Below, piece by piece: positions 3,224 to 64,000 of a DNA stretch of 64,000 nucleotides. The notes beneath the pieces were generated by a model. It did not search any database and was not told where the DNA came from. It was given only the letters and a program-made list of their open reading frames with translations. The position numbers were made by a program, and so were the translations under genes. The stretch is from Armatimonadota bacterium (GTDB lineage Bacteria; Armatimonadota; Chthonomonadetes; Chthonomonadales; Chthonomonadaceae), in NCBI GenBank assembly GCA_028871815.1, contig JAGWMJ010000008.1, positions 124,001-188,000 on the forward strand, written 5' to 3'. Position 1 is the first letter of the stretch; each line of letters begins with the position of its first letter.

Positions 3224-4135
3224 ATGACGCCAGAAAGCAAGAACGGCGCTGTCGACGCACGGCGCACGGTTGAGATGGCCGACGAAGTGGGATTCTGCTT
3301 CGGCGTGAAGCGCGCCATCAACCTCACTCGGGATGCACTTGATGAACGCAAGGAGGTGTTCATCCTCGGTGACCTTGTGCATAACAAGGCCGTTACCGAC
3401 GAGCTGCAGGCCAAAGGGCTGCAGCGGCTGGATGAGTACGATGATCAGCACCGTGGCACGATGGTTATCCGTGCCCACGGGTTGCCGCAAGAGAAGATTG
3501 AAGAAGCGCAGAAGCGTGGAATCGAGGTTGTAAACGCTACCTGTCCGATCGTGCTGCGGGCGCAGGAAGCAGCACAGGAGCTTGAGAGGCTCGGCAGGCA
3601 GGTGGTGATTATCGGCGACAAGAACCACGCCGAGATCAAGGGCATCCTCGGAGCTCTTCAGAAGCCCGCGCTCGTCATCGACAGCGTGGAGGAGCTTTAC
3701 TCCTACAAGGAGACCTACCTGCTGCGCCGCAAGGTTGGCGTGATCTTTCAGACGACACACGCATTGGAGTTGTGCCGCGCCATCCTGAACGAACTGGTGT
3801 TCATGTGTAAGGATATTCAGATTATCAACACGATCTGCCGGCCGGTACGGAATCGCCAGGATGATGCCGTTGAACTGGCCAGTCGAGTGGAGCTGATGAT
3901 CGTGGTCGGTTCGCGCACCAGCGCAAACACCACCGAGCTCGCCGCGCTGTGCAAACACCACAATCCCAACACGGTCCAGGTGCAAGGCGCCGCAGAGTTG
4001 ACCGATGAAATGATGGGCGACTGGCGCCATGTAGGCATCGCCTCCGGACTTTCCACACCGGAGGACCTGGTGGAGGAGGTGCGCCTGAAGGTGCTGCGCA
4101 GTGCGCCCGTCGGGCCGGATGGCGTCCGGGCGTAG
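3224..4135 (+). CDS. ispH: 4-hydroxy-3-methylbut-2-enyl diphosphate reductase IspH/LytB
   Basis: Last enzyme of the MEP pathway, reducing HMBPP to IPP and DMAPP with a 4Fe-4S cluster. The three cluster cysteines are visible at about C25 (GFCFGVKRAI), C107 (NATCPIV) and C205 (NTICRPVRNRQ), with spacing close to E. coli IspH. The conserved GSRTSANT and SGLSTPEDL segments near the C-terminus are also present. At 303 residues the length is normal. A ggagag site lies before the ATG. It sits between hpnA and hpnG, so isoprenoid supply and hopanoid modification would be transcribed together. Confidence 0.95.
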   Translation: MTPESKNGAVDARRTVEMADEVGFCFGVKRAINLTRDALDERKEVFILGDLVHNKAVTDELQAKGLQRLDEYDDQHRGTMVIRAHGLPQEKIEEAQKRGIEVVNATCPIVLRAQEAAQELERLGRQVVIIGDKNHAEIKGILGALQKPALVIDSVEELYSYKETYLLRRKVGVIFQTTHALELCRAILNELVFMCKDIQIINTICRPVRNRQDDAVELASRVELMIVVGSRTSANTTELAALCKHHNPNTVQVQGAAELTDEMMGDWRHVGIASGLSTPEDLVEEVRLKVLRSAPVGPDGVRA

Positions 4136-59174: not shown

Positions 59175-60191
59175 CTACGCCTTTGACGCCGAAACCACCG
59201 ATTGAGGGCCGTTCGCCAGGGCATGCAGGGCGATATCGCCGAAGCCGGCGGTCTCCAGCATTGTCTGGTACTCAGCAAAGGTCCAGGCTTCCCCGCGTGG
59301 GGTTGTGGCCAGCATTACGAGGCTGAATAGCGCGGGCCCGGGCGGCGATACCCGGTCGCTCTCGGGAATAAACTCCAGTACCATCACCTTTCCCGCGGGC
59401 GCCAACGCCTCCCGGACCTTGCGAAGCAGCGTAACAATGGTTTCGGCGTCGAAATGGTGGAGGAAGTTTGGCAGCAGGACGGCGTCGAAGCCGGTACCGA
59501 ATTCGACCTCAAAAGCATCGCCCGGCCGCTCGCGAAACCGGCTGGCCACGCCAAACTTTTCCGCATTGCTCCGCGCGACCGCCAGCACTTCAGGCCAATC
59601 CTGAGCCGTGACGACTGCGCCCGGGTGCCGCGCTGCCACCTGAATACCGAACAGGCCATGCCCGGCCGCGATATCCAGCACGCTCGACTCCCCTTGGGGC
59701 AGCGTTACAAGCTCCGCAAGCTGCAAGGCGGCCGGGAACATCATCGGCGCCATGCTTCGCGCGAACTCCACCCACCTCGCATGATCACTTTCGCCATGCA
59801 GTTCGTGGGTGGTCGTCGATCCACCGGACTTGACGGCCTCGGTAAGGCGCCGAAACTGTTCGCGCGCCTGACCGAGGAGAAACCGTCGGATATCTCCGAG
59901 GTACTGCTGCGACTTGCGATTGCAAAAGCGCTGGACGTCGGGCGGATTGGAGTAGAGGCCGTTGGACTTGATCAGGAGGCCCTGCACCGTCAGGTAGTCG
60001 CACAGGATGCGCACTCCGCGCTCGGATGCACCGGTCTCCGCGGCAATCTGCGCCGCAGACTGCGGGCCGGAAGCCGCTGCCGTAAAGAGATCCAGTTCAA
60101 GCGCGGTGTTCAGCGCCTCGGTAGTCTCAAACATGCCGAGGACCGCGAAGATGCGTTCCGGTGAGTCCGGATTTGTGAGTGGGAGGGTCAT
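59175..60191 (-). CDS. SAM-dependent O-/C-methyltransferase with dimerisation domain
   Basis: 338 residues. An N-terminal winged-helix dimerisation domain (QIAAETGASERGVRILCDYL) is followed by the SAM-binding Rossmann fold with motif I SSVLDIAAGHGLFGIQVA at about 168, VTAQDWPEVL and LLPNFLHHFD. This is the family 2 O-methyltransferase architecture (acetylserotonin methyltransferase-like). The second of two tandem ATGs (60191) is 6 bases after GGAG. Substrate unknown; no pathway genes nearby. Confidence 0.88.
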   Translation of the reverse strand: MTLPLTNPDSPERIFAVLGMFETTEALNTALELDLFTAAASGPQSAAQIAAETGASERGVRILCDYLTVQGLLIKSNGLYSNPPDVQRFCNRKSQQYLGDIRRFLLGQAREQFRRLTEAVKSGGSTTTHELHGESDHARWVEFARSMAPMMFPAALQLAELVTLPQGESSVLDIAAGHGLFGIQVAARHPGAVVTAQDWPEVLAVARSNAEKFGVASRFRERPGDAFEVEFGTGFDAVLLPNFLHHFDAETIVTLLRKVREALAPAGKVMVLEFIPESDRVSPPGPALFSLVMLATTPRGEAWTFAEYQTMLETAGFGDIALHALANGPQSVVSASKA

Positions 60192-60352
60192 CATAAGCTC
60201 CTTTGTGCGGCGAGACTCTGCCGTTCCCGGCTTAACGGTACGTAATCGCGAACCCTATCTTACTGTATTGCGCGGCAAGCGGCGATACGGGAAAAGGGCG
60301 CACTCGCCGTGGCGCGGCGCTCAGCGCAGCTGACGAAGCACACCGCCGGCAA

Positions 60353-60605
60353 CCTGCGTGGAGGTGGTGGTGTCTGAAGCGGAGCGGCTCACGCGGCGGC
60401 CCAGGGCGTCGTGCCGAAGCCGGTCACCGCCGTGCCCTGCGTGATCGATTTGAGCCGGCCGCCGTTATCCATCGTGGAGCTTGTAGAGGTGCTTCCCACC
60501 GTTTCGCCGGTGCGGTTTCCTACCGGGTCCACCGTATACGAAAAGGAGTACGGGTTTGAGCCGGTCCGCGTTTCCGACGTGAGGCGGCTCCCCAGTCGTA
60601 CCGGG
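60353..60605 (-). pseudogene. RHS/YD-repeat remnant (copy A)
   Basis: The minus strand encodes YD-repeat text homologous to copy B (SNPYSFSYTVDPVGNRTGET, STSSTMDNGGRLKSITQG) but broken by at least two single-base deletions relative to it: one near 60590 (gggagc for ggcagc) and one near 60411 (tat/tac codon reduced). It also lacks the roughly 100-base module present in copy B at about 61860-61965. It has no start and no tip, so it is a dead fragment left at the array end. Confidence 0.85.
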
Positions 60606-60722: not shown

Positions 60723-61055
60723 CTAATACCGTCGCGTCAGTCGGCCAGATAGCCCACGGAGGACGCCGATCATCCGGCTTGGAAAGGCTGAGGCGGACGC
60801 ACCAACCGACACGGCCGCCATTGCGATGCATAGTCCGCGAAAAATCTGCGGTGCGCCAAGGAGATAGGCCGCCGCCGATAAGACGCTACTGGCCCCACAT
60901 TGTAGGGAGAGCGATCCGAGCACATCGTCGACGGCTCGGCGATCGGCTACGGGACGGAAGCGACGCGCCAGCCACGCCCGTAGGCAGGCCGCGAAGGCCG
61001 CGGCAACCACGACCGCGTACTGGAATAATCGCACGTCGCTCATTTTGCCAGCCAT
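60723..61055 (-). CDS. Small membrane protein overlapping the RHS copy B tip, candidate immunity protein
   Basis: 110 residues with three hydrophobic segments (LFQYAVVVAAAFAACLRAWL, ASSVLSAAAYLLG, LCIAMAAVSVGASA) and a basic C-terminus. Starts are ATG 61055 or ATG 61043, the latter forming an ATGA overlap with the RHS stop at 61042-61040. Tight coupling to an RHS tip is the usual place for an immunity gene. No homologue was recognised, so the role is inference. Confidence 0.6.
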   Translation of the reverse strand: MAGKMSDVRLFQYAVVVAAAFAACLRAWLARRFRPVADRRAVDDVLGSLSLQCGASSVLSAAAYLLGAPQIFRGLCIAMAAVSVGASASAFPSRMIGVLRGLSGRLTRRY

Positions 61056-61825
61056 AACGCCGCGAGCGCCGGGCACATGCCGGTCAACCCGACACCTATC
61101 ATCGCGATTCCGCCCTCGGTGAGCGCATCGGCTTGGTTGTCCCCGTCCTCTCGGGCTCCTACGTAGCCTCCAAGTCCCGCACCGACAGTCCCTCCAATCC
61201 ATGCGCCGACCGCGATACCCGTCTTTGCGCCTTCGATTCCGCCCTCGATTCCACCGACTGGGCCAGCAGCGATTATGCCAACGACCGTGCCTATTATCGC
61301 CCCGCCAACGCCAACGATGATTGCACCGAGTTCTGCGTTAGTGGGACGAAAATGCCCAGTTGGATCCGCCCAGTCCACGGGATCCCCACCACAGTACACA
61401 TACGGTATCTGGTCCAGCATACTGTCCCTACTGGCGAACCGCCCGACCTGCGGATCGTAATAGCGCGCTCCTACGTGTAGTAGGCCAGCGTCGCCGTTGC
61501 TCTGGTAGGCCCAGTCGCCGGCGAAGTTGTACGGACTCGACGTTGAGCCACTGCTCGCGATCGTGTTTCCAAACGCATCGAAATCCTGCGTCGCCGTAGC
61601 CGTGCCGGAGCTGTTGGTTTCGGCGCGGGCCGAGCCCGGCGCCTCGAATGCGGGATACTCGCCGTTACGCCGGAGCAGGTCGGTGCCGAGGGTGTAAGCC
61701 GCCGTGAAGGTGCTGCCCTGCGTCTCCGTCACCGGCGCGCCGCCGGCGTACTGCGTGGAGGTGGTGGTGCCTGAAGCGGTACGGCTCACGCGGCGGCGGA
61801 GAGCGTCATAGCCGAAACCGGTCAC
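61040..61825 (-). CDS. RHS protein C-terminal part, copy B (core end plus glycine-zipper tip)
   Basis: 261 residues. The core end has the RHS hallmark GARYYDPQVGRFASRDS followed by PYVYCGGDPVDWADPTGHF, the conserved junction where tips are exchanged. The tip (about 105 residues) is a run of Gly/Ala/Ile zipper segments (GAIIVGVGGAIIG, GGIEGGIEGAKTG, GAWIGGTVGAGLGG), suggesting a membrane-inserting domain. The upstream part of the gene (61822-62130) is in another frame because of a deletion near 61850, so no complete protein is made without frameshifting. In-frame GTG at 61825 is only the first codon open. Confidence 0.8.
   Translation of the reverse strand: MTGFGYDALRRRVSRTASGTTTSTQYAGGAPVTETQGSTFTAAYTLGTDLLRRNGEYPAFEAPGSARAETNSSGTATATQDFDAFGNTIASSGSTSSPYNFAGDWAYQSNGDAGLLHVGARYYDPQVGRFASRDSMLDQIPYVYCGGDPVDWADPTGHFRPTNAELGAIIVGVGGAIIGTVVGIIAAGPVGGIEGGIEGAKTGIAVGAWIGGTVGAGLGGYVGAREDGDNQADALTEGGIAMIGVGLTGMCPALAALWLAK
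61401..61616 (-). repeat. RHS core repeat, left copy (pairs with 63785-64000)
   Basis: Aligned without gaps to 63785-64000 at a constant offset of 2384 bases; I counted about 12 mismatches in 216 bases, most clustered at a short low-constraint Ser/Thr stretch. Confidence 0.9.
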
Positions 61826-62180
61826 CGCTGTGCCCTGCGTGATCGACTTGAGCTGCCGTCGTAATCGAAGGCGAGGGTGTACGCCGTGCCGGCCAGCGTC
61901 CGTCCGGTCTGTTCGCCGTTTGCATTGTACGAGTAACTGTTCGCGAATCCGCCGCTGGTCGACGTAAGCTCATCGTCGTTATCCATCGTGAAGCTCGTAG
62001 AGGTGCTTCCCACCGTTTCGCCGGTCCGGTTGCCTACCGGGTCCACCGTATACGAAATCGAATACGGGTTTGAGCCGGTTCGCGTTTCCGAAGTGATGCG
62101 GCTGCCCCAGTCGTATCCGAATTTTACCACGTTGCTGTTGGCGTCGGTAACCTGCGTCGTGCGACGGTGGTCCGGCCGGT
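61822..62180 (-). pseudogene. Upstream YD-repeat part of RHS copy B, frameshifted
   Basis: Encodes VTDANSNVVKFGYDWGSR, ETRTGSNPYSISYTVDP, NSYSYNANGEQTGRTLAGT and ends FDYDG, where the frame is lost: the continuation QLKSITQGTAVTGFGYDAL is one frame away (junction near 61850). It is the N-terminal side of copy B and is homologous to copy A. Confidence 0.75.
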
Positions 62181-63342: not shown

Positions 63343-64000
63343 CTAATCCAAAAAAGGCGCCCGGCGGGCCCGTCGTCGTGGTGGCGTGCTTGACCGCCAA
63401 TGCTCGTATCCAGCCGCATTGTTCGGCGGAATGTACTCCTGACACAGGTCACTGATGTCATTCTCCATCGCTTGATCCGTAGCTGCCTCTTTCGCGACGA
63501 TATCGATGCCCCGTCCGGCAGCTACGGCACCATCGCCAATCGTGCCTGCCACGCCCTCGGCCGATCCAACGCCATCCGTTTCTGTGATGCCCCCGAGGAT
63601 CTCCTCGACGGCGTCCTGACCTACGTCGCGGCCAAACGAACCCAGGGTGGACCATTCTGGTGTGATGCCGCACACTTGTTGCGGCGCACCCGGCCACCCG
63701 TTGATGGGTATTGGCCGCTCGTGCGTGATCGCCAAAAAGCCACTTGGATCAATGCAGCCATTCGGTTCGCCCCAGCAATACGCGTACGGTATCTGGTCCA
63801 GCATACTGTCCCTACTGGCGAACCGCCCAACCTGCGGATCGTAATAGCGCGCTCCTACGTGTAGTAGGCCAGCGTCGCCGTGGCTCTGGTAGGCCCAATC
63901 GCCGGCGAAGTTGTACGGGCTGCTAGTGCTGCCGCTGCTCGCGATCGTGTTTCCAAACGCATCGAAATCCTGCGTCGCCGTAGCCGTGCCGGAGCTGTTG
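63343..64000 (-). CDS. RHS protein C-terminal part, copy C, 5' end outside the window
   Basis: 219 residues, open to the window edge. The core (DFDAFGNTIASSGSTSS, FAGDWAYQSHGDAGLLHVG, ARYYDPQVGRFASRDS) is almost identical to copy B at DNA level. After the junction MLDQIPYAYCWGEPNGCIDPSGF the tip is unrelated to that of copy B: about 135 residues, acidic in the middle (DAVEEILGGITETDG) and with DISDLCQEYIPPNNAAGYEHW near the end. It could be the active toxin tip; its activity is unknown. Confidence 0.85.
   Translation of the reverse strand, partial: NSSGTATATQDFDAFGNTIASSGSTSSPYNFAGDWAYQSHGDAGLLHVGARYYDPQVGRFASRDSMLDQIPYAYCWGEPNGCIDPSGFLAITHERPIPINGWPGAPQQVCGITPEWSTLGSFGRDVGQDAVEEILGGITETDGVGSAEGVAGTIGDGAVAAGRGIDIVAKEAATDQAMENDISDLCQEYIPPNNAAGYEHWRSSTPPRRRARRAPFLD
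63785..64000 (-). repeat. RHS core repeat, right copy (pairs with 61401-61616)
   Basis: Near-identical partner of 61401-61616, cut by the window edge; homology probably continues beyond 64000. Confidence 0.9.

Follow-up and report, generated by a model that had tools for sequence, protein, structure and literature searches.

Described Systems and Comparison with the Locus

The Rhs effector Tse5 possesses a membrane-depolarizing C-terminal tip, and its immunity protein, Tsi5, is membrane-bound (PMC12744356, PMC11630599). EsxX and TspA from the T7SS of Staphylococcus aureus are glycine-zipper depolarizing toxins that are neutralized by the membrane proteins ExiCD and TsaI, respectively, and ExiCD is polytopic (PMC12744356). 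The CDI ionophores of Escherichia coli are highly polymorphic tips with little in common except a putative glycine zipper, and each is paired with its own CdiI immunity protein, which is hydrophobic and also polymorphic (PMC11630599). A GxxxG-rich region of Tde1 from the Agrobacterium T6SS permeabilizes membranes (PMC10240207). The orphan rhs-CT/rhsI of Salmonella Typhimurium LT2 is an RHS fragment that lacks signals for initiation and export and is linked to an immunity gene; it shares core DNA with another rhs copy and is activated by recombination (PMC3967940).

The stretch of DNA analyzed here (the window, 64,000 nucleotides) contains an RHS core fragment, designated copy B, that is followed by a variable tip of the glycine-zipper type and by a 106-aa open reading frame (ORF). 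With moderate confidence, copy B is regarded as an orphan RHS-CT/immunity module of the membrane-depolarizing kind, with the tip as the predicted toxin and the small ORF as the putative immunity protein. It resembles the Tse5/Tsi5 pair of the Pseudomonas aeruginosa H1-T6SS in the RHS carrier and in the depolarizing tip and the membrane immunity protein, both of which are predicted for copy B. Tse5 is full length and T6SS-delivered, whereas copy B is only a core fragment in a genome in which VipB and a phage sheath were not found; the tip and the ORF of copy B match no family, and the likeness is one of description. The same holds for EsxX and TspA, which are LXG toxins of a type VII system and match the copy B tip by description, with no family match found; EsxX also needs a soluble cytoplasmic immunity pair. 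The CDI toxins use a CdiA carrier, a separate entry domain, and a five-helix ionophore domain, whereas copy B has an RHS carrier and a tip of 104 aa with about three helices, predicted at low confidence. The Tde1 zipper is located at the N-terminus and carries a DNase into the target, whereas only approximately 35 residues of the tip remain after the zipper of copy B. In Salmonella a full-length main gene lies beside the orphan and is 95% identical to it over 522 bp, unlike the present genome, where approximately 20 units occur in several arrays with a core identity of approximately 84%, some with short promoter-bearing heads.

The Copy B Core, the Tip, and the Adjacent ORF

The core fragment that is in frame with the tip extends from 61355 to 61825 on the minus strand, and the upstream part of the core (61822–62165, minus strand) is in another reading frame. 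Core and tip are encoded, in that order, by a 261-aa ORF at 61825–61040 (minus strand). The TIGR03696 model (Rhs_assc_core) matches residues 82–158 of this ORF over its entire length (1–76 of 76, E = 3.4e-17) and accounts for the last part of the core fragment. The core is complete up to the tip boundary at 61352–61354 and directly precedes the variable tip, which is the arrangement of an RHS-CT. Residues 1–160 are 87–91% identical in protein sequence to the best sister units.

The reading frame of copy B is shifted near 61850–61860, consistent with a one-base deletion, and the portion of the core from 62130 to 61822 is read in a frame that differs from that of the tip. The likeness to other units stops near 62165, as expected for a 5' truncation, and the shell and N-terminal region of a complete RHS protein are not present in a single frame. 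Copy B is therefore an orphan fragment and not a complete RHS gene, because its similarity starts near 62165 and the reading is interrupted by the frameshift near 61855. A scan for sigma-70-like sites between 60000 and 64000 gave none, where 1.0 is expected by chance. The broken core frame, the missing 5' end, and the lack of a visible promoter indicate that the module is most likely a silent, unexpressed orphan. A fragmentary rhs frame without expression signals that is linked at an ATGA to an ORF with an inferred immunity role is the arrangement of an orphan rhs-CT. The sequence-only reading had proposed coupled synthesis of the tip and the small ORF; it had reported neither the frameshift (approximately 61850–61860) nor the truncation near 62165, and the proposal is not upheld in a frameshifted copy with no visible promoter.

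The variable tip is located at 61043–61354 on the minus strand (residues 158–261 of the ORF) and terminates with the TGA stop codon at 61042–61040. It includes 27 glycine residues. The glycine-zipper stretch (61145–61336, minus strand; tip residues 7–70) contains 12 GxxxG motifs, compared with 6.3 expected from shuffles of its own composition (p = 0.0016). The difference is larger for three-residue zipper motifs in the same residues, where 12 are found, 3.7 are expected, and none of 5000 shuffles reaches 12. The zipper motifs noted earlier are thus confirmed, at a density above what composition provides. The hydrophobic peaks of the tip are 2.45 and 1.8, and the best 19-residue window (2.45) exceeds that of the shuffles (1.84, p = 0.02). 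The tip accordingly contains (G/A/S)xxxGxxxG repeats within a hydrophobic C-terminal segment, as in glycine-zipper toxins. The single-sequence AlphaFold2 model of the tip is helical with low confidence (pLDDT 66), and a Foldseek search of this model against the PDB returned nothing at E ≤ 0.001.

The 106-aa ORF, a probable membrane immunity protein, is located at 60723–61043 on the minus strand. Its ATG (61043–61041) shares the tetranucleotide ATGA (61043–61040) with the stop codon of the tip, and the overlap noted previously is therefore correct. Three hydrophobic peaks make the earlier description of a three-TM protein plausible, although their Kyte-Doolittle heights of 1.62, 1.32, and 1.57 are marginal, at or below the usual threshold. 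The AlphaFold2 model of this ORF, made without an alignment, contains only helices and is also of low confidence (pLDDT 56). The structure predictions suggested for the two monomers thus gave helices, at low confidence for both, and no fold is claimed for either protein because of this and because the tip model has no Foldseek match. The small ORF is a putative immunity gene whose product is probably embedded in the membrane. Its interpretation as an out-of-frame continuation of the tip is not favored, given its own ATG at the overlap and its helical, hydrophobic composition.

The ATGA overlap was rejected as strong evidence for a gene pair. In this GC-rich sequence, an ORF of at least 90 aa starts within −20 to +5 of 14–18% of random same-strand stop codons, and the overlap alone is therefore weak evidence. 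Such an ORF with at least two TM peaks follows only 0.4–4% of random stops. Codon usage was also set aside as a coding test; it is uninformative for both the tip and the small ORF, and low scores are obtained for many sister tips and their neighbors.

Searches of Pfam, NCBIfam, PADLOC, and PDB sequences gave no credible family for the tip or the small ORF, in agreement with the earlier remark that neither resembles a known family. No homolog of the small ORF was found in 291 genomes of the phylum, plasmids, or viral contigs after seven weak matches (E ≥ 0.003) were discarded, and no convincing homolog of the tip was found in the 291 genomes. The pair would be new if confirmed, because the tip and its neighbor fall outside the Pfam and NCBIfam families and have no credible PDB match. 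The same lack of homologs counts against the module reading, as do the marginal TM peaks of the small ORF, the uninformative codon usage, and the degraded state of the copy.

These properties bear on the alternative that copy B is a decaying pseudogene fragment without toxin or immunity function and that the small ORF is a chance frame in GC-rich DNA. The frameshift, the 5' truncation, the missing promoter-like site, the frequency with which ORFs of at least 90 aa begin at random stops, and a small ORF that has no homologs and a codon usage that is not gene-like are all consistent with such a relic. Polytopic ORFs at this position are nevertheless rare by chance (0.4–4%), the frame of the tip is open to its end, the atypical codon usage is shared with several sister tips and neighbors, and the sister units, in which tip and neighbor are inherited together, have this layout as well. 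A functionless relic is accordingly considered quite improbable.

Two other RHS remnants occur in the window. Copy A (63343–64000, minus strand), a core fragment with a different, soluble-looking tip, corresponds to C8:187343–188077 of the contig; its core runs to about C8:188077 and then ends, and it is thus also 5' truncated. No convincing immunity ORF follows the tip of copy A. Copy C (60338–60593, minus strand) is a third core remnant that has no tip and forms direct repeats with copy B at 85–93% identity. It is located just upstream of an O-methyltransferase gene (59175–60194).

Sister Units and the Association of Tips with Their Neighbors

The same core is present at approximately 20 further places in the 3.68-Mb genome. 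Clusters of sister units are found on contigs C1, C2, C9, C12, and C20, a single unit is found on C10, and partial cores are located at the ends of C4 and C5 and on C17. The DNA identity between cores has a median of 84% and falls to approximately 52% (alignment noise) just behind the core, and the tips of the approximately 20 same-core units are unrelated. The core of copy B is 68–88% identical to those of other units, mostly 79–86%, over approximately 300 nt, compared with 95% in Salmonella. Most sister tips are short (about 60–130 aa), hydrophobic, and glycine-rich, with the hydrophobic part at or close to their end; C9_150464 and C8_187343 are soluble-looking exceptions. A small membrane-protein ORF is usually found close behind the sister tips, and many of these ORFs overlap the tip or start a short distance after it. 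Several of these tips and neighbors are also atypical in codon usage.

In two tip families, tips and neighbors have been duplicated together. The tips of C1_297067 and C9_148410 are 69% identical and their neighbors 70% identical; for C1_714024 and C1_715144 both values are 46%. The dN is smaller than the dS in both duplicated pairs, but only slightly for the tips of C1_714024 and C1_715144. In a third tip family, C12_76527 and C1_716264, the tips are related and the neighbors are unrelated, and the linkage is therefore not absolute.

The association was examined with 83 nonredundant tips from this genome and its relatives in the phylum, 75 of which have a neighboring ORF. Of the 22 tips in which the hydrophobic segment is no more than 60 residues from the end, 16 are followed by an ORF with at least two TM peaks, compared with 11 of the 53 other tips (Fisher p = 3.4e-5). 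Nine threshold settings that require at least two TM peaks gave p values of 5e-7 to 0.02, and settings that require one or three peaks gave values of 0.001–0.12. Taken separately, the relatives show the association (p = 0.006); in this genome by itself it is borderline (p = 0.0495). These values apply to neighbors picked by rule as the longest ORF near the stop, with TM calls from Kyte-Doolittle profiles only and with sister units that are not fully independent. Some of the other tip neighbors are ankyrin, TPR, or HEAT proteins, folds that are common among the immunity proteins of polymorphic toxins.

The earlier proposal of a membrane toxin/immunity pair gained support at the level of the class, from the approximately 20 sister units, the two duplicated pairs, and the phylum-wide association of tips with neighbors. 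Against the module reading, the same rule assigns polytopic neighbors to 15 of 42 ordinary genes in the window, so membrane neighbors are not rare here, and the neighbors of C12_76527 and C1_716264 are unrelated.

The association also bears on a second alternative, in which the zipper is an entry (translocation) region as in Tde1, the catalytic domain has been lost from copy B, and the small ORF is unrelated or confers immunity to something else. The zipper of Tde1 carries a DNase into target cells, although the Tde1 N-terminus itself inhibits growth (PMC10240207). In several tips from relatives, the hydrophobic segment is followed by a long polar tail. Among the tip matches inspected in other genomes, only the best one is an RHS tip. 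This tip (L179; C30:60000–65590 of genome G132) ends at locus position 3441 and is followed at −4 by a soluble 293-aa ORF. Its zipper is partly similar to that of copy B (15 of 33 residues identical) and precedes a longer tail, possibly a nuclease to judge by its HH motif, with no Pfam match. A translocation role is retained as an alternative because a similar zipper precedes a possible nuclease in this distant genome. The E value of 2.3e-6 from the genome search weakens to 0.007 with composition-adjusted BLASTP, and the match may reflect similarity of composition. Most sister tips are as short as that of copy B and terminate within or close to their hydrophobic part, and the loss of a domain would therefore have to be repeated. 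Short tips with a hydrophobic end have polytopic neighbors far more often than long-tailed tips, and there is no room for a lost domain between the tip stop codon and the small ORF. Translocation with a lost domain is considered unlikely. For copy B the zipper is favored as the active part because only approximately 35 residues follow it and the neighbor is of the membrane type; the neighbor is the weaker half of this argument because of its marginal TM peaks.

Heads with a Promoter-Like Region, Proposed Mechanism, and Delivery

Seven sister units, designated heads, start with MITLVSISY (MMTLFSISY in one). They are preceded by a conserved region of approximately 140 nt that contains TTGACA (CTGACA in two), a spacing of 17 bases, and TATGAT (CATGAT in one). 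These regions are located at C1:298104–298243, C2:291736–291864, C4:416–559, C5:224097–224233, C9:153418–153559, C10:37265–37410, and C12:75301–75440. The candidate ATG of the heads overlaps the −10 box, which implies that the promoter has been misread or that translation begins at a later codon (leaderless).

The mechanism proposed for the module begins with homologous recombination, which, by analogy with the Salmonella orphan rhs, could occur through the shared core with one of the seven promoter-bearing heads. Such an event could bring the tip under the control of a promoter and circumvent the frameshift. No recombinants between copy B and other units were seen. Once fused in frame to an RHS core that is expressed, the tip would enter the cytoplasmic membrane, form a bundle in which about three helices pack against each other by their GxxxG faces, and dissipate the membrane potential. 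The small ORF product would reside in the membrane of the producer and block insertion or assembly.

Delivery is less readily explained. The heads lack the N-terminal RHS/delivery region. The sole DUF6531 RHS gene of the genome, at C5:176740, has a core that is only weakly similar. VipB (PF05943) and Phage_sheath_1 (PF04984) have no match in the genome, which is 98% complete, and the Tse5 type of delivery by a T6SS is therefore not indicated. The heads without a delivery region, the weak similarity of the DUF6531 gene, and the missing sheath proteins count against the module reading. Relatives encode long RHS proteins whose hydrophobic tips are similar, such as that at L099 (1021 aa, DUF6531, 16 RHS repeats, and a hydrophobic tip).

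Heads with a promoter and no delivery region, in a genome where neither VipB nor a phage-like sheath was found, would also suit modules that act inside the producing cell as toxin–antitoxin-like pairs and not as delivered weapons. However, competition modules typically have hypervariable tips and mosaic arrays like these, full-length RHS genes whose tips are hydrophobic occur in the relatives, and copy B itself is promoterless; this alternative is judged very improbable. A broader and rather speculative proposal, to which a low probability is assigned, is that the genome is a combinatorial store of membrane toxins, with seven promoter-bearing short RHS genes that have no delivery region and stand before, or apart from, a set of promoterless tip/immunity cassettes. 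Recombination within the core would swap the expressed tip, and the toxins would act inside the producer without delivery.

Under the favored reading of copy B as an orphan toxin/immunity module, confirmation would establish a new membrane-toxin/immunity pair. The genome-wide set of modules, some with promoter-bearing RHS heads, is of more interest than copy B alone. A little-studied lineage carries approximately 20 RHS tips, most of them membrane-directed in appearance and each beside its own probable immunity gene. This constitutes a natural set for following the joint diversification of glycine-zipper toxins and membrane immunity proteins, and it raises the question of what maintains a conserved promoter in short RHS genes that lack a delivery region.

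The contigs break inside the repeated RHS core at C1:717058 (end), C20:1, C4:3, and C5:224647, and the structure of the arrays at these ends is hidden by the assembly gap. Two head units are cut off by the ends of C4 and C5 and are probably continuous with the units that lie at the C1 and C20 ends. Two look-alike ORFs of approximately 320 aa (HAPEERHRAKSWSACVVRR and HAPLERHRARSWSACVVRR) are found near RHS units on the minus strand, at L034:7525–8475 (C9) and L033:5213–6190 (C1). The ORF on C9 comes after a soluble-looking RHS tip, at −11.
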